This document shows positions 20,621 through 28,202 of a DNA stretch of 64,000 nucleotides, piece after piece; position 1 is the stretch's first letter, and the number at the start of each line of letters is the position of its first letter. The notes under the pieces are model-generated. The model searched no databases and was not told the origin of the DNA. It saw only the letters and a program-made list of their open reading frames with translations. This stretch comes from Sphingomonas sp. MA1305 (GTDB taxonomy: Bacteria > Pseudomonadota > Alphaproteobacteria > Sphingomonadales > Sphingomonadaceae). Location: contig NZ_RCVT01000001.1 in assembly GCF_016107325.1 (NCBI RefSeq), forward strand, positions 1,364,001 to 1,428,000, in the 5' to 3' direction. Both the position numbers and the translations under genes were made by a program.

Positions 20621-21799
20621 ATGGCCGACGCCGTCATGCAACCGTCGGATCTTCGCGTCGCGCTGTTCAGCGGCAACTACAATTACACGCGCGACGGCGC
20701 CAATCAGGCGCTCAACCTGCTGGTCGGGCATCTGCTGCGCCAGGGCGTGACGGTGCGCGTCTATTCGCCGACCATCGATCCGCCCGCCTTTCCGCCGACC
20801 GGGGATATCGTCTCGGTGCCGGCGATCCCGATGCCGGGCGGTCGCGCCGAATATCGTCTGGGCCGATATCTGCCCGCGGCGACGCGCGCCGATCTGGAAG
20901 CCTTTGCCCCCAACATCGTCCACGTCTCCGCGCCCGAATTCCTCAACCACGGCGCGGTCACCTGGGCACGGCGACACGGCGTGCCCGTCGTCGCCTCGTT
21001 CCACACCCGCTTCGAAACCTATTTCCGCTATTACAAGATCGGCTTCATCGAACCGCTGATCAAGGCGATCATGACGCGCTTCTACAATCGCGTCGATCTG
21101 GTCATGCCGCCCAGCCCCAGCATGGGCGCGACGATGCGCGAATGGGGCGTGACCACGCCGATGACGCTGTGGTCGCGCGGCATCGACCACGACCGCTTCC
21201 GCCCCGACCGCCGCAGCCCCGACTGGCGCCGCTCGCTCGGCATCGCCGACGACGAGGTGGCGATCGGCTTCCTCGGCCGGCTGGTCAAGGAAAAGGGCCT
21301 CGACGTCTTTGCCGACGTGCTCGCCGAACTGCGCCGGCGCGGGGTGCGCCACAAGGCGCTGGTGATCGGCAAGGGCCCGGCGGAGGCATGGTTCGCCGAG
21401 GCCGCGCCGGGTGCGGTGTTCGCCGGCTTCCAGTCGGGCGACGCGCTGGGCCGGGCGGTCGCGTCGATGGACATCTTCTTCAATCCCAGCATCACCGAGA
21501 CATTCGGCAACGTCACCACCGAGGCGATGGCCGCCGGCGTGCCGGTCGTCGCCGCGCGCGCGACCGGCGCGGTCGACCTCGTCGAGGACGGCGTCACCGG
21601 CTATCTGGTTAGCCCCCGCGACATCGCCGGCTATGCCGATGCGATCGCCCGTATCGCCGGCGACCCCGTGCTCCGCACCAACATGGGCCACGCCGGCCAC
21701 GCCGCCGCGGCCGGCTACAAATGGGATACGGCGAACCAGGCGGTGCTCGACGCCTATCTGAAACTTCGCGCCGAAAAGGCTCATTCCGACGGCAATTGA
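20621..21799 (+). CDS. GT4-family glycosyltransferase (GT-B fold)
   Basis: A 392-residue glycosyltransferase that probably transfers a nucleotide-sugar residue to a lipid or sugar acceptor at the inner membrane. The N-terminal domain begins DLRVALFSGNYNYTRDGANQ, with the glycine-rich acceptor-side loop GANQALN. The C-terminal Rossmann domain (GFLGRLVKEKGLDVFADVL near 220) ends with the GT4 E-x7-E region SITETFGNVTTEAMAAGVPV near 291-310, where FGNVTTEAM holds the donor-binding Glu. It resembles plant/bacterial sulfoquinovosyl or mannosyl transferases (MgtA-like); the donor sugar cannot be assigned. The start may be ATG 20621 or 20636. It stands alone, followed by the repeat at 21819. Confidence 0.85.
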   Translation: MADAVMQPSDLRVALFSGNYNYTRDGANQALNLLVGHLLRQGVTVRVYSPTIDPPAFPPTGDIVSVPAIPMPGGRAEYRLGRYLPAATRADLEAFAPNIVHVSAPEFLNHGAVTWARRHGVPVVASFHTRFETYFRYYKIGFIEPLIKAIMTRFYNRVDLVMPPSPSMGATMREWGVTTPMTLWSRGIDHDRFRPDRRSPDWRRSLGIADDEVAIGFLGRLVKEKGLDVFADVLAELRRRGVRHKALVIGKGPAEAWFAEAAPGAVFAGFQSGDALGRAVASMDIFFNPSITETFGNVTTEAMAAGVPVVAARATGAVDLVEDGVTGYLVSPRDIAGYADAIARIAGDPVLRTNMGHAGHAAAAGYKWDTANQAVLDAYLKLRAEKAHSDGN

Positions 21800-23015: not shown

Positions 23016-24335
23016 ATGGCAGACCTGCTCACCGGCCTCGAACCGGAGCCGACCCCCGCCCCGGCCGCGGCCGATGCCCCGCTCGCCGACCGGCTGCGCC
23101 CGCAGCGGCTCGCCGAGGTCGTCGGGCAGGAGCATCTCACCGGCCCCGACGGCGCGATCGGCCGCATGGTCGCCGCCGGGCGGCTGTCGTCGATGATCCT
23201 CTGGGGTCCGCCGGGCACCGGCAAGACCACCATCGCGCGCCTGCTCGCCGACGCCGTGTCCCTGCGCTTCGTCGCCATTTCCGCCGTCTTCTCGGGCGTC
23301 GCCGACCTCAAGAAGGCCTTTGCCGAGGCCCGCGACCACGCCCGCCTCGGCCGGCGCACGTTGCTGTTCGTCGACGAGATCCACCGCTTCAATCGCGCGC
23401 AGCAGGATGGTTTCCTGCCCTATGTCGAGGACGGCACCGTCACCCTGGTCGGCGCGACCACGGAAAACCCGTCCTTCGAACTCAATGCCGCGGTGCTCAG
23501 CCGCGCGCAGGTGCTGATCCTCCACCGTCTGGGTGCCGAGGCGCTCGGCAAGCTGCTCGACCGCGCCGAGGCGCTGGAGGGCCGCCCCCTGCCGCTGACC
23601 CAGGAGGCGCGCGCGGCGATGATCGCGCAAGCCGATGGCGACGGCCGTTTCCTGCTCAACCAGGCGGAGACCCTGTTCTCCGTCGACCTGTCTGCGCCGC
23701 TCGATCCCGCCGGCCTGTCCGCCTTCCTGCAGCGGCGCGTGGCGGTCTACGACAAGGACCGTGAGGGCCATTACAATCTGATCAGCGCGCTCCACAAATC
23801 GATCCGCGGCTCCGATCCGCAGGCGGCGCTCTATTATCTCGCCCGCATGCTGACCGCCGGCGAGGAGCCGCTCTACGTGCTCCGCCGCCTGACCCGTGCC
23901 GCGGTCGAGGACATCGGCCTCGCCGATCCGCAGGCGCTGGTCCAGTGTATCGCCGCCAAGGACACCTACGACTTCCTCGGCTCGCCGGAGGGCGAGCTGG
24001 CGATCGCCCAGGCCTGCCTCTACCTCGCCACCGCGCCCAAATCGAACGCCGCCTATATGGCGCAGAAGAAGGCGTGGCGGACGGCGAAGGAGACGGGGTC
24101 GCTGATGCCGCCGGACAATATCCTCAACGCCCCGACCAAGCTGATGAAGCAGATCGGCTATGGCGCCGATTACGCCTATGACCATGACGCGCCGGACGGC
24201 TTCTCGGGCGCCAATTACTGGCCGGCCGAATTGCCGCCGCAGACCTTCTACGCGCCGAGCGGTCGCGGCTTCGAGAAGCGCCTGCAGGAACGGCTCGACT
24301 ATTGGGACCAGCTGCGCCGCGAGCGCAACGGCTAG
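23016..24335 (+). CDS. rarA: Replication-associated recombination protein RarA (MgsA)
   Basis: RarA is an AAA+ clamp-loader-like ATPase that acts at stalled replication forks. The 439-residue protein, beginning MADLLTGLEPEPTP, has Walker A GPPGTGKT (64-71), Walker B LLFVDEIHRFN (about 118-128), sensor 1 GATTENPSFELNAAVLSRAQ and the C-terminal MgsA oligomerisation domain (KSIRGSDPQAALYYLARML, YLATAPKSNAAYMAQKKAW). The frame is open upstream to 22623, and an ATG at 22935 is possible, but only 23016 gives the usual family start. No strong ribosome-binding site was found. Its stop overlaps that of the convergent decarboxylase by 4 bases. Confidence 0.93.
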   Translation: MADLLTGLEPEPTPAPAAADAPLADRLRPQRLAEVVGQEHLTGPDGAIGRMVAAGRLSSMILWGPPGTGKTTIARLLADAVSLRFVAISAVFSGVADLKKAFAEARDHARLGRRTLLFVDEIHRFNRAQQDGFLPYVEDGTVTLVGATTENPSFELNAAVLSRAQVLILHRLGAEALGKLLDRAEALEGRPLPLTQEARAAMIAQADGDGRFLLNQAETLFSVDLSAPLDPAGLSAFLQRRVAVYDKDREGHYNLISALHKSIRGSDPQAALYYLARMLTAGEEPLYVLRRLTRAAVEDIGLADPQALVQCIAAKDTYDFLGSPEGELAIAQACLYLATAPKSNAAYMAQKKAWRTAKETGSLMPPDNILNAPTKLMKQIGYGADYAYDHDAPDGFSGANYWPAELPPQTFYAPSGRGFEKRLQERLDYWDQLRRERNG

Positions 24336-25192
24336 CGCGACGCCAGCGCCTTGCCGGCCCGGATCGCCTGCCCCTCGACCAGACCCGGCGCCAGCGCGAC
24401 GCCGGCCGGCAGGAAGACAACGATGGTCGAACCATGTTCGAACCAGCCCATTTCGTCGCCCTTGCTCAGGCGCGCGTCACAGGCCACCCGCGCCGAGCCG
24501 ACGTCCCGCAACGATCGCTCGGTGTCGAGGAAGGTCAGCCGGATGCTCGCCACCAGGATCGCCGCAACCGGCACCAGCAGCAGCGGCGTGCCGTCCGCCA
24601 ACCGCGCCTCGATCACCGCCCGCTCGTTGCGGCAGAACAGCCGTTCGACCCGCTTGAGCGCGATCGGATTGACGTTCCAGCAGTCGCCCGAAAGATAGGT
24701 CACGCCCCCCACGGTCAAACCGTGCGGCGCGTGGAAGCGGTGGTACATGCCCGCGGTCAGCCGCAGCGTCACGAAGCTGCCGTCGCGGAACCTGTCCGCC
24801 ACCGCGGCATCGGGGATCAACTCGCCGAGCCGGTAGGGGAAGCCCTTGACCTGATACAGACGATCGCCGTCGATCCGCCCGTGCGCACCCACGATCGCAT
24901 CGCAGGGCGAGGCGATCGTCGCCGGATCGGGATCGAAGACCCGCGCGCCCGGCCGCAGCGCCCGCGTGAAGCCATCGCGCAGGGACCGGAAGCGTGTCGT
25001 CGCCGCATCCGACAGATCGACCCCGCCGAAAAAGCGCCACAGCGCCAGCGCCGGCCGCGCCACCAGCGGGTGCTCGACCGCAGCGATCCGCCCGACCATC
25101 CGGGTGGCGAATCGCCGCGGCAGGCGGTTGGTGAGCAGGAAATTGATGTCCTCCTGCAACAGCAGCCGCATCAGGCCCTTCGGGGCTGTCAT
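24332..25192 (-). CDS. Phosphatidylserine decarboxylase-like enzyme (PSD-B/archaetidylserine type)
   Basis: PSD enzymes convert phosphatidylserine to phosphatidylethanolamine using a pyruvoyl group created by self-cleavage. The 286-residue length fits the long, PSD-B-like subgroup. The Asp-His-Ser triad is complete: SPCDAIVG (about 94-101), MYHRFHAPHG (about 149-158), and the self-cleavage site GST in WFEHGSTIVVF (about 253-263). HGST differs from the usual LGST but keeps the Gly-Ser-Thr core. GVTYLSGDCWNVNPIALKR is also typical. The ATG 25192 is divergent from the aminotransferase start at 25208 (about 15 bp), an extremely tight head-to-head pair. Together with pmtA at 28.2 kb this makes a headgroup-synthesis neighbourhood; whether it is the only PSD of the genome is unknown. 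Confidence 0.88.
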   Translation of the reverse strand: MTAPKGLMRLLLQEDINFLLTNRLPRRFATRMVGRIAAVEHPLVARPALALWRFFGGVDLSDAATTRFRSLRDGFTRALRPGARVFDPDPATIASPCDAIVGAHGRIDGDRLYQVKGFPYRLGELIPDAAVADRFRDGSFVTLRLTAGMYHRFHAPHGLTVGGVTYLSGDCWNVNPIALKRVERLFCRNERAVIEARLADGTPLLLVPVAAILVASIRLTFLDTERSLRDVGSARVACDARLSKGDEMGWFEHGSTIVVFLPAGVALAPGLVEGQAIRAGKALASR

Positions 25193-25207
25193 CGTGACGT
25201 CACCCGT

Positions 25208-26878
25208 ATGCGCTCAAGCGCGGTCATGTCGCTCCTCCTCTATCCGATCGCCGCGGGCACCGGTCTGCTCGCCGCCACCAAGGGCCGCCAGCGTCTCGCG
25301 CTGTCGCGCGCCAAGCATCGCTCGCTCGGCGGCCATGTCCGCATGGCCAAGCGTATCGCCGGCCTGATCCCCTTTTACGAATACGGCCCCGATCGCTTCT
25401 TCCGCGCCGACGACGCGCCCGAGGAGATCGCCAGCCGCCGCCAGGCCGGCTTCGAGCGGCTCGGCGCCCTGTACGCGGAGCGCTTCGCCAGGACGCTCGC
25501 CCTTACCCGCGAAACCCGCGACGGCCTGTCCGACCTGCAGTTCACCGGCGTCTATCGCGTGCCCTTCCAGTTCAGCCGCCGCGTGCGCGAGTCGCTCGGC
25601 ACCGGTGCCTTCCTCGCCCGTTCCGAGGGGCCATGCGTCTACGATCTCGACGACAACCGGCTGATCGACCTGACCGGCTCCTACGGCGTCAACCTGCTCG
25701 GTTATGAGGCGTACAAGCGGATGATCCGGGAGGGCGCGGCGCTGGTCGAGCAATTGGGTCCGGTGCTTGGCGGGCTGCACCCGGTGACGGCCGACAATGT
25801 CGCCCGCATTCGCGCGATATCCGGCATGGACGAGGTCTCGTTCCATATGTCCGGCACGGAGGCGGTGATGCAGGCGGTGCGGCTCGCCCGCTATCACACC
25901 CGCCGTCGCCGCATCGTCCGCTTCGCCGGCGCCTATCACGGCTGGTGGGGCGACGTGCAGCCGGGGATCGGCAACCCCGTTCCCGCCGACGGCACGCTGA
26001 CGCTCGCGGATCAGTCCGAGCAGACGCTCCGCGTGCTCGCCAGCCGCAAGGACATCGCCTGCGTGCTGGTCAACCCCCTGCAGGCGATGCACCCCAATGG
26101 CGCCGCGCCATCCGACGGCCAGCTGGTCGACGGCGGCCGCACGGCGGCGGCCGATCGCGAGGCCTATGGCGCTTGGCTGCGCCGGCTGGCGGAGGTGTGC
26201 CGCGGCAACGGCATCGTGCTGATCCTCGACGAGGTGTTCGTCGGCTTCCGCCTCGCGCGTGGCGGTGCCGCGGAATATTTCGGGGTCACGCCGGATCTCG
26301 TCACCTATGGCAAGACGCTCGGCGGCGGCCTGCCGGTCGGCGTACTCGCCGGCCGTGCCGCGCTGATGAAGCGCTGGCGCGACGATCGCCCCGTCGACAT
26401 CTGCTTCGCGCGCGGCACGTTCAACGCCCATCCCTATGTCATGGGCGCGATGAACGCCTTCCTGCGGCACCTCGACACGCCCGAGGGGCAGGCGCTGTAC
26501 GACGGTCTGGACGAACGCTGGCACGACCGCGCGGCGCGACTCAACGCCGCGCTCGCCGCGGAGGAGTTGCCGGTGCGGGTGGCCAATCTCCAGACGATCT
26601 GGACCGTCCTCTACGACGCGCCATCGGCCTATAATTGGATGCTGCAATATTACCTCCGCGCCGAGGGGCTGGCGCTGAGCTGGGTCGGCACCGGGCGGCT
26701 GATCTTCAGCCTCGACATCGACGACACGCTGTTCGCGGAGATCGTCGAACGCTTCGTCGCCGCGGTACGGGCGATGCAGGCGGATGGCTGGTTCTGGCAT
26801 CCCGAGGGCATCACCAACAAACAGGTGCGGCGGCGGCTGCTGCGCGAATCGATCGCCGTGCGGCTGGGCCGCCGCTGA
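25208..26878 (+). CDS. Class-III PLP aminotransferase, GSA-aminomutase-like with N-terminal extension
   Basis: A 556-residue protein, about 130 residues longer than glutamate-1-semialdehyde aminomutase (HemL). The PLP lysine is K369 in VTYGKTLGGGLPVG, with phosphate-binding SGTEAVM (about 218-224), VRFAGAYHGWW and LILDEVFVGFRLARGG (about 337-352). The first 130 residues hold no recognised domain, start MRSSAVMSLLLYPIAAGTG (a hydrophobic patch that could touch membrane) and include GLIPFYEYGPDRFFRADD. Housekeeping HemL is not expected here with this extension, so a lipid or secondary substrate is more likely. The start is ATG 25208 or 25226. It stands divergent from the PSD-like gene, which suggests shared control. 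Confidence 0.85.
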   Translation: MRSSAVMSLLLYPIAAGTGLLAATKGRQRLALSRAKHRSLGGHVRMAKRIAGLIPFYEYGPDRFFRADDAPEEIASRRQAGFERLGALYAERFARTLALTRETRDGLSDLQFTGVYRVPFQFSRRVRESLGTGAFLARSEGPCVYDLDDNRLIDLTGSYGVNLLGYEAYKRMIREGAALVEQLGPVLGGLHPVTADNVARIRAISGMDEVSFHMSGTEAVMQAVRLARYHTRRRRIVRFAGAYHGWWGDVQPGIGNPVPADGTLTLADQSEQTLRVLASRKDIACVLVNPLQAMHPNGAAPSDGQLVDGGRTAAADREAYGAWLRRLAEVCRGNGIVLILDEVFVGFRLARGGAAEYFGVTPDLVTYGKTLGGGLPVGVLAGRAALMKRWRDDRPVDICFARGTFNAHPYVMGAMNAFLRHLDTPEGQALYDGLDERWHDRAARLNAALAAEELPVRVANLQTIWTVLYDAPSAYNWMLQYYLRAEGLALSWVGTGRLIFSLDIDDTLFAEIVERFVAAVRAMQADGWFWHPEGITNKQVRRRLLRESIAVRLGRR

Positions 26879-26885
26879 CACGAGA

Positions 26886-26909
26886 AGGGGCGGCCGCGGC
26901 GCCGCCCCT
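26886..26909. terminator. Hairpin between convergent genes, candidate bidirectional terminator
   Basis: AGGGGCGGC and GCCGCCCCT are perfect 9-base arms around a CGCGGC loop. There is no T-run on either side, so it would be a weak Rho-independent terminator. It lies between the stops of the aminotransferase and the Mpo1-like gene. Confidence 0.45.
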
Positions 26910-26934
26910 CCCGCTCCGCCACGATGCCGACGCG

Positions 26935-27543
26935 TCAGCCGTGTGCGACCGCGTCGGGGTCGTCGAACCGCTCGCCGCGCAGCAATCGGCCGGGCGCACT
27001 CTTGTACATCTTGAAATCGTTGAACGGGTCGGTGACGATCTTCGTCGCCCAGACCAGCCCGGTCTCGATGTCGCGCTGGAAGAACAGCTGCACCGAGCGG
27101 AAGACGATGGCCCCCGCGCCGAGGAACAGCCAAGCGGTCCCGACGCGGCGCAGCGTCGTCTGCCACCCGTCCGGCGCGGCCAGCAGCCCGCCCAGCGTCG
27201 GCGCCAGGAACAGCGCCACCGGGATCGCCGCCCACAGGCTCATCAGCACGACCTTGCGCGCCAGATTGTAACCGACCTTGATCTCTTCCTTATGCTCGTG
27301 GCTCGCGTCGTTTTTATGGTCGTAGCCCTTGGGCTCGAAGAAGAAATGCCCCGCCTGGCGGCTCGTCATCGCCACCCCCCAGGCGAGCAGGCTCGCCACC
27401 GCGGTGTCGACGAACAGCAAGGCATAGGCCGTCAGGAACGTGCAGGCGCTGACGAAGTGAAGGCTCTGGTTGACCAGGCTGTGATGATAATAGCGATGAT
27501 CGTCCCACCGCTGTTCGGCGAGCTGCGCGCGGAAATTGGTCAT
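26935..27543 (-). CDS. Mpo1/DUF962-like multi-spanning membrane protein
   Basis: A 202-residue membrane protein with about four hydrophobic segments (residues 28-46, 48-62, 94-120, 138-154). It begins MTNFRAQLAEQRWDDHRYYH, and the HHSLVNQSLHFVSACTFL segment fits the His/Asn/His pattern of DUF962, the family of yeast Mpo1, an Fe(II) dioxygenase of 2-hydroxy fatty acids. RQAGHFFFEPKGYDHKN is similar to the second metal-binding part. If real, the activity would suit an organism rich in 2-hydroxy fatty acids such as a sphingomonad. The match is moderate only. Its ATG overlaps the stop of pmtA by 4 bases, so the two are coupled. Confidence 0.55.
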   Translation of the reverse strand: MTNFRAQLAEQRWDDHRYYHHSLVNQSLHFVSACTFLTAYALLFVDTAVASLLAWGVAMTSRQAGHFFFEPKGYDHKNDASHEHKEEIKVGYNLARKVVLMSLWAAIPVALFLAPTLGGLLAAPDGWQTTLRRVGTAWLFLGAGAIVFRSVQLFFQRDIETGLVWATKIVTDPFNDFKMYKSAPGRLLRGERFDDPDAVAHG

Positions 27544-28202
27544 TGCACCTGATCCTGTACCGAGGCGGTCTTGGCGAAACGGACGAGCGAGAAGTGACCG
27601 AGCGGCGGGATCGGCCGCGCCTCGATCAGCGTCACGTCGGCACGCCCCGCCGCCCAATCCTCATAGAGCGAAAACGGAAAGTCGGTGCGGAAGCCGAGCC
27701 GGCTGGTGATCGGCATCAGCCCCTTTTCGATTTTGCCGCGCAACCCGCCGCTGGCGCTGACGCGGGTGGTGACGACGATCTCCCCACCGGGGCGGCAGAC
27801 ACGGGCGAATTCGTCGAGCGCCCGCTCCGGGTGCGGCACCGCCGACACGACATATTGCGCGACCACGCAGTCGAAGGCGTTGTCCGGATAATGGAGCGCC
27901 TCGGCATCGCCGACCTCGATCGCCTCGACATTGTCGAGCTTCAGGCGGCGGACCCGATCACGCGCCTTGCCCAGCATGTCCTCGGAAATGTCGACGCCGA
28001 CGATGCGGCTATCCGCCGAATAGCCGGGCAGCGAGATGCCGGTGCCGACGCCGACCTCCAGGATGCGCCTGCCGACGCCTTCCGCCGCCCGGATTGCCGC
28101 GGCGCGGCCCTGGCGAAACACCGGGCCGAAGACGAGGTCGTAGACCGGCGCCCAACGATCATAGGCCTTGGCGACGCCGGCGGTGTTCATCTGTACTGAC
28201 AA
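27540..28202 (-). CDS. pmtA: Phosphatidylethanolamine N-methyltransferase (Rhodobacter type), TTG start
   Basis: PmtA methylates phosphatidylethanolamine three times with SAM to form phosphatidylcholine. The 220-residue class-I methyltransferase resembles the soluble Rhodobacter sphaeroides type. It has YDRWAPVYDLVFGPVFRQGR (residues 14-33), the SAM motif ILEVGVGTGISLPGY (about 47-61), VGVDISEDMLGKAR and VCRPGGEIVVTTRV. The TTG 28202 codon lies 7 bases after a perfect AAGGAG; the ATG at 28190 would be 19 bases away, so the TTG is preferred. It is followed by the Mpo1-like gene with a stop-start overlap. The PSD-like gene 3 kb away would supply its substrate. Confidence 0.87.
   Translation of the reverse strand: MSVQMNTAGVAKAYDRWAPVYDLVFGPVFRQGRAAAIRAAEGVGRRILEVGVGTGISLPGYSADSRIVGVDISEDMLGKARDRVRRLKLDNVEAIEVGDAEALHYPDNAFDCVVAQYVVSAVPHPERALDEFARVCRPGGEIVVTTRVSASGGLRGKIEKGLMPITSRLGFRTDFPFSLYEDWAAGRADVTLIEARPIPPLGHFSLVRFAKTASVQDQVQ

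Follow-up and report, generated by a model that had tools for sequence, protein, structure and literature searches.

Gene Content of the Locus

The region described here is a 64,000-nucleotide stretch of DNA from Sphingomonas sp. MA1305 (C1:1364001-1428000), which lies within a 4.04 Mb genome of 10 contigs and which will be referred to as the window. In this window, an initial annotation had recognized a group of four neighboring genes coding for a phosphatidylserine decarboxylase (PSD)-like enzyme (hereafter PSD2), a class-III aminotransferase (AT), a protein resembling yeast Mpo1 and a PmtA-like phospholipid N-methyltransferase, and all four of them were verified at the positions where they had been placed. 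Their coordinates and those of their main predicted features, including a segment of AT that is common to the aminotransferase domains of polyketide synthases and nonribosomal peptide synthetases (PKS/NRPS), are given in Table 1.

Two start codons are available for AT, viz. ATG 25208, which gives the 556 aa protein and the 15 bp head-to-head spacing from PSD2 that had been described, and ATG 25226, which gives a protein of 550 aa. The second of these is preferred because it fits the starts of the orthologs better in the alignment, and the gap between AT and PSD2 is therefore 33 bp, not 15. For the open reading frame (ORF) of the PmtA-like protein, TTG 28202 is listed as an alternative start. 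The coupling of this gene with that for the Mpo1-like protein was confirmed, as the stop codon of the former and the start codon of the latter overlap by 4 bp (ATGA).

Table 1. Genes of the block and their predicted features, numbered from the first nucleotide of the window.
Feature	Position	Strand	Remarks
PSD2, extra phosphatidylserine decarboxylase-like enzyme	24332-25192	-	286 aa; PF02666 180.9 bits, TIGR00163 above cut-off
PSD2 Ser255 codon (HGST), predicted self-cleavage/pyruvoyl serine	24428-24430	-	Invariant in 85/85 aligned rows
AT, class-III aminotransferase carrying a hydrophobic helix at its N-terminus	25226-26878	+	550 aa; PF00202 122.7 bits
Hydrophobic helix at the N-terminus of AT (residues 5-29), plausible membrane anchor	25238-25312	+	Predicted model, hydropathy
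Segment of the AT extension (residues 59-125) common to PKS/NRPS aminotransferase domains	25400-25600	+	6kfm alignment, profile matches
AT Lys363 codon, predicted pyridoxal phosphate lysine	26312-26314	+	Invariant in 26/26 aligned orthologs; role by analogy with class-III aminotransferases
Mpo1-like (PF06127, DUF962-type) helical membrane protein	26935-27543	-	202 aa
PmtA-like phospholipid N-methyltransferase, alphaproteobacterial partner, non-core	27540-28190	-	216 aa, ATG start

Conservation and Distribution of the Block

The conservation of this gene arrangement was examined in the best 80 of 589 AT relatives detected in a scan of named genomes; because these loci are the best-scoring part of the total they lean toward close relatives, and all of the locus counts given below refer to them unless another set is named. 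Synteny was determined by tblastn and only loci with sufficient flank were counted, which removed two of the 80 loci from the count for PSD2, 11 from that for the Mpo1-like gene, 13 from that for PmtA and 30 from that for glycosyltransferases of the GT4 type. PSD2 adjoins AT in all 78 of the loci counted. Wherever a PSD match was obtained (79 loci), it lies 12-162 bp from the match of AT, and the order of the two is inverted only in L135. The Mpo1-like gene lies within 2.3 kb of AT in 68 of 69 loci. A PmtA-like gene is present in 54 of 67 loci, and the 13 loci without it comprise 11 that are betaproteobacterial by title (some of them so called from what we take to be the affiliation of the titled genera or orders), L118, which is titled Proteobacteria, and L110 from Acidisphaera. 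Some GT4 gene is found within 6 kb of AT in 29 of 50 loci. In five genomes of one additional family (f191), the genes form a single-strand run in the order AT, GT4 fusion, PSD, and Mpo1-like. Pfam recognized the GT4 domain in three of these fusions, and in the remaining two it was identified by similarity. The titles of the loci include Sphingomonas, Methylobacterium, Bradyrhizobium, Methylocapsa, Acetobacteraceae, Variovorax, Sulfuricella, and Zoogloea. Two further clusters of neighbors (c5 and c10) were judged by eye to be shadow frames antisense to the genes of the block and were left uncounted.

Full-length AT was found in five of the 41 genomes in the set of relatives (this genome and four others of the genus, 72-74% identical), in five of 385 alphaproteobacteria (this genome included, the other four 60-64% identical) and, across the phylum, in 21 of 299 genomes (this genome included, the others 50-71% identical). 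In the search of the 385 genomes, a further four gave partial matches of 33-36% that satisfied the E 1e-35 threshold, and these were not counted as carriers. Within the genus, genomes with the block are in the minority. The objection that the cluster may not be conserved in relatives fails, since the block is conserved among its carriers, though it was found in only 4 of the 24 further genomes of this genus. A search of plasmids with AT (E 1e-60) yielded one record, a Sphingomonas plasmid with the whole block, whose genes are annotated as archaetidylserine decarboxylase, class III-fold aminotransferase, hypothetical protein, and methyltransferase.

The same genes also occur together at the level of genomes. 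The Mpo1-like profile (E 1e-10) identified among the 385 alphaproteobacteria exactly the five genomes that contain full-length AT (G000, G283, G319, G364, and G400). Similarly, among the 41 relatives all five genomes with AT, and no others, possess a PSD2 ortholog (75-80% identical to the window copy in the four besides this genome); in five other genomes of this set the PSDs reach 32-36% identity only. The pairwise distances of the four families are correlated (r 0.79 to 0.86, calculated without a control set). A chance neighborhood was ruled out because of this synteny and the co-occurrence in the same genomes, and the view that the genes belong together is upheld. PSD2, AT, and the Mpo1-like protein make up a core whose genes are passed on together in proteobacteria that are only distantly related, whereas PmtA, which had been regarded as a core member, is absent beside the betaproteobacterial copies and is a non-core partner found in alphaproteobacteria. 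A special tie to the lipids of sphingomonads, which had also been suggested, was not upheld; a sphingolipid link is not favored because the block is carried by Bradyrhizobium, Methylobacterium, and betaproteobacteria, which are not known to contain sphingolipids.

Relationship of AT to PKS/NRPS Aminotransferase Domains

Matches of the Aminotran_3 type start near residue 125-135 of AT and the long N-terminal extension, previously put at about 130 residues, is therefore genuine. Among solved structures, the closest relative of AT by sequence was the aminotransferase (AMT) domain of the mycosubtilin synthase MycA (170.1 bits), the best HemL protein scoring 131.7 bits. The same domain (6kfm) was also the best fold match of the AlphaFold model of AT (mean pLDDT 82.8), with Z 32.9 and a root-mean-square deviation of 2.7 over 419 aligned residues, and this alignment covers residues 59-523 of the model, including part of the extension. 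A profile based upon 26 AT orthologs gave 175-211 bits with seven PKS/NRPS-type domains in long ORFs and 146-159 bits with five free-standing proteins that are assumed here, as in the tree, to be HemL-like; the matches began at residue 60-77 in five of the seven domains and at residue 77 in a sixth. For the three of these seven domains that were checked for assembly-line context, acyltransferase and carrier domains were found in L042 and L065, and a condensation domain in L042 and L068. In a tree of 31 rows, the AT clade (support 100/100) was sister to the PKS/NRPS aminotransferase domains (96/87), and the HemL-like proteins branched outside. These sequence and model comparisons place AT in a distinct clade next to the PKS/NRPS β-keto aminotransferase domains, and its earlier description as a glutamate-1-semialdehyde (GSA)-type enzyme is not supported.

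The MycA domain is reported to transfer an amine from Gln to a β-ketothioester (PMC3870968). By analogy, AT may work in the manner of a PKS/NRPS AMT domain although it forms a separate clade. It differs from the MycA domain (6kfm, 6kfu) in being a free-standing protein of about 550 aa with lipid genes as neighbors, not embedded in an assembly line and with none conserved beside it, and also in its long stem and its hydrophobic N-terminal helix. This helix comprises residues 5-29 of the model (pLDDT about 58-85), and the best 17-residue hydropathy of the N-terminus is at least 1.6 in 67 of 87 orthologs (1.61 in the window). As judged from the model and the alignments, the extension is composed of two parts, this hydrophobic helix and a segment from about residue 59 that is common to AMT domains. 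The model indicates that AT is probably anchored to the membrane by the helix.

Characteristics of PSD2, the Mpo1-Like Protein and the PmtA-Like Protein

PSD2 belongs to the PF02666 fold family like the E. coli enzyme (PDB 7cnw, 6l06), and scores 146.6 bits with TIGR00163, above the cut-off of 111.75. A match to PSD was found in 85 of 86 AT loci, and after exclusion of that in L086 (99 aa, at a contig end) the residues were compared in 84 of them and the window. Asp98, His151, and Ser255 (HGST) of PSD2, which correspond to E. coli D90, H144, and S254, are invariant in all 85 rows; PSD2 differs from E. coli PSD in having R, M, and N in place of Y137, D142, and S166, also in 85/85 rows. The residues for self-maturation have been named as D90/D142-H144-S254, Y137 and S166 are said to touch the lipid phosphate, and Arg is found at position 137 in 15% of the family (PMC7952604). 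The complete triad reported for this enzyme is thus limited to D90-H144-S254, because the equivalent of D142 in the window copy is Met149. D90 alone can suffice for the self-maturation of PSDs. With its three catalytic residues retained throughout, PSD2 is expected to remain a decarboxylase, and its site for the head group, where neither of the two phosphate-contact residues is kept, may have changed. However, phosphatidylserine stays possible as its substrate because of the share of the family with Arg at 137, and the change of S166 to N by itself says little because the other PSD of this genome also has N at this position.

PSD2 is a copy additional to another psd. Two PF02666 genes are present in this genome and the second of these (NF003679, 312.8 bits; cut-off 252) overlaps the start of a pssA-like ORF, whose best model (TIGR00473, 103.4 bits) is just below the cut-off of 107; a second psd beside a pssA-like gene, for which a check had been suggested, is therefore present elsewhere in the genome. 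At least two PF02666 genes above 100 bits were found in 22 of 24 AT genomes, the exceptions being G504, with one gene and a fragment, and G532, an incomplete assembly with one.

Yeast Mpo1 is an Fe-dependent 2-hydroxy-fatty-acid dioxygenase. The match of the Mpo1-like proteins to its family, PF06127, is weak yet consistent: 52 of 53 orthologs match at E 0.05 or better, the window protein with 21.6 bits, below the gathering cut-off of 24, and that of L109 with 24.2 bits. Unlike the 95-position profile, these proteins are about 200 aa long with a conserved second half, and their invariant residues are located around QRWDDHR-Y-H, N-Q--LH, and RQ-GH--FEP. The predicted model is helical (mean pLDDT 90.1). 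A sequence search detected no solved relative of the Mpo1-like protein, and the fold comparison (best Z 3.6) was uninformative.

The closest solved relative of the PmtA-like protein is the phosphatidylethanolamine N-methyltransferase 8ys9 (134 bits, E 4.4e-38; next match E 1.3e-13), and it is the only close copy in this genome, the next match being 28% identical. What sets it apart from PmtA is its setting beside the module and its absence from betaproteobacterial loci. With NF045882 it scores 141.7 bits, below the cut-off of 390, but this test is narrow because the model, by its name, was built on Legionella enzymes.

Proposed Function and Alternative Explanations

We consider it highly probable that the locus is a dedicated lipid module, in which PSD2, AT, and the Mpo1-like protein would form the core, joined by PmtA in alphaproteobacteria and by a GT4 in many of the other copies. 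The fuller reading, that this is an accessory aminolipid module in which AT aminates a membrane-held keto-lipid, seems to us evenly poised between being right and being wrong. In such a module AT would sit at the membrane by means of its N-terminal helix and transfer an amino group to a lipid ketone in analogy with the MycA domain; PSD2, through a pyruvoyl Schiff base, would decarboxylate an α-amino-acid head group, either that of phosphatidylserine or of an analog; and the Mpo1-like protein might catalyze an oxidation that depends on Fe, possibly with a 2-hydroxy-acyl chain as its substrate, as suggested by the yeast enzyme. Such a pathway would yield an amino-modified phospholipid or glycolipid, which PmtA would N-methylate where it is present and which the GT4 would glycosylate in other copies.

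A number of observations weigh against the proposal that AT aminates a keto-lipid as part of such a unit. The margin between 6kfm and the best HemL fold match (3l44, Z 30.3) is modest, and because of the long stem of the AT clade (length 2.42) its chemistry may have changed. The membrane anchor is not certain because the N-terminal hydropathy is below 1.6 in 20 of 87 orthologs. No ketone-making enzyme is found in the conserved block, and the PF06127 scores of the Mpo1-like proteins are mostly weak. Strict linkage is also called into question by L110, where PSD2 and AT are present with no Mpo1-like gene within 10 kb, and by Mpo1-like genes of 48-50% identity on eight Bradyrhizobium plasmids; the annotation of three such plasmid regions, which is incomplete, lists neither AT nor PSD up to 9 kb from the Mpo1-like gene.

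Of the other explanations, the one that survives best, though we think it unlikely, is a head-group route in which AT would act on the ethanolamine head group that PSD2 forms, either deaminating it to a lipid aldehyde or cleaving it, and the Mpo1-like protein or a glycosyltransferase would use the product. Class-III enzymes often act on primary amines, which is a point in its favor, and a class-III relative, ethanolamine-phosphate phospho-lyase, provides a model for the cleavage. The constant position of PSD2 beside AT is in keeping with this route, and so is the resemblance to lipid glycosyltransferases of the GT4s beside many copies, e.g., that of L159 (NF053787, 147 bits; NF049988, 137 bits; both below cut-off). 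However, AT groups with β-keto aminotransferase domains and, among solved structures, comes closest to MycA in sequence.

An ordinary supply of phosphatidylethanolamine and phosphatidylcholine, with PSD2 and PmtA converting phosphatidylserine into phosphatidylcholine and with AT and the Mpo1-like protein as unrelated neighbors, is improbable. Although PSD2 and PmtA are recognizable enzymes of this route, and no other close copy of PmtA is present in the genome, another psd exists beside the pssA-like gene, and it is AT, PSD2, and the Mpo1-like gene that are constant and co-occur in the same genomes, whereas 13 of 67 loci lack PmtA. We assign a slightly smaller chance still to the block making a small secreted or soluble amino-fatty-acid in place of a bulk membrane lipid; the kinship of AT with the domains of lipopeptide assembly lines would suit such a product, but clustering of the 80 loci revealed no carrier protein, ketosynthase or ligase as a conserved neighbor, and the partners of AT are lipid enzymes. 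Lastly, there is practically no prospect that AT is a GSA aminomutase for heme, and this candidate was ruled out, since the HemL models do match AT, with which HemL shares the class-III fold, but with scores (NF000818, 179.6 bits; TIGR00713, 167.2 bits) far below their cut-offs (398 and 527.3 bits), the six alphaproteobacterial carriers tested have 5-aminolevulinate synthase above cut-off (653 bits in this genome) and no HemL above cut-off, and in all five beta- and gammaproteobacterial carriers tested a separate HemL (568-604 bits) coexists with AT, so that the concern that AT might be the only such aminomutase is removed.

Returning to the accessory aminolipid module, we put forward tentatively, as possible rather than probable, that many alpha- and betaproteobacteria possess a new class of membrane lipids, produced by a dedicated second PSD, an Mpo1-like oxygenase and an aminotransferase that is related to the polyketide β-aminotransferases but bound to the membrane. 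If true, membrane-lipid synthesis would have taken over its β-amination chemistry from assembly lines. Were the module to work as proposed, an amino-modified membrane lipid that has so far been overlooked would be made by a range of bacteria living with plants, in soil, and in water, the way in which an aminotransferase of the assembly-line type was recruited to membranes would become apparent, and a function would be assigned to a block whose annotated copy reads decarboxylase, aminotransferase, and hypothetical protein. The co-inheritance of the genes predicts a difference in lipids between carriers and non-carriers of one genus. The enzyme superfamilies are already known; for their combination in the block, the AT clade and the linkage no description was found among the papers listed in the literature searches, which covered open-licence papers only, so that this absence is weak. 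Of the undescribed aminolipid pathway that the initial annotation had envisaged, the linked genes, the extra psd, and the lack of a published description found thus still speak for it, but not the GSA-type enzyme, the sphingomonad tie or PmtA as a core gene.

Neighboring Genes and Other Observations

In the window, a GT4 glycosyltransferase at 20621-21799, 2.5 kb from PSD2, is a candidate member of the block. It shows 26-34% identity to GT4s beside other copies (31-34% to those of several of them), and one PadR-type and one MgsA-type gene lie between it and PSD2. GT4s with an extra N-terminal part are found at L155:3674-6352, L156:2344-5022, L157:5378-8110, and L147:12475-15003, those of f191 being located between AT and PSD. 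We take the motifs HxH, NHNN, and GGSDDH in the N-terminal part of the f191 and L147 fusions to be of the PHP-phosphoesterase kind; Pfam reported only the GT4 part of the f191 fusions and no PHP-like domain. As judged from these motifs, the fusion might pair head-group removal with glycosylation.

The titles of L090, L101, L104, and L111 (Bacillus, Nitrosovibrio, Asaia, and Bordetella) look doubtful for their sequences; L101 and L104 are 93% identical in PmtA and 87% in PSD2. Lone Mpo1-like genes are located on conjugative Bradyrhizobium plasmids at L164, L165, and L167 (9001-9639), where one record names a Blr4581 protein and two of the three regions are rich in transposases or insertion sequences.

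A two-domain acyltransferase directly follows the Mpo1-like gene at L155:8101-9855 (PF19576 and PF13444) and, alike by eye, at L154:12224-14005; this pairing of domains is that of the OlsF ornithine-lipid synthases. In some beta-type loci a transporter of the major facilitator superfamily is found near the block (L149:13693-14955, L116:13686-14966, L109:6408-7604, L135:5979-7574, and L159:10194-11492, the last of which matches PF07690), and these transporters resemble the lysophospholipid transporter LplT.

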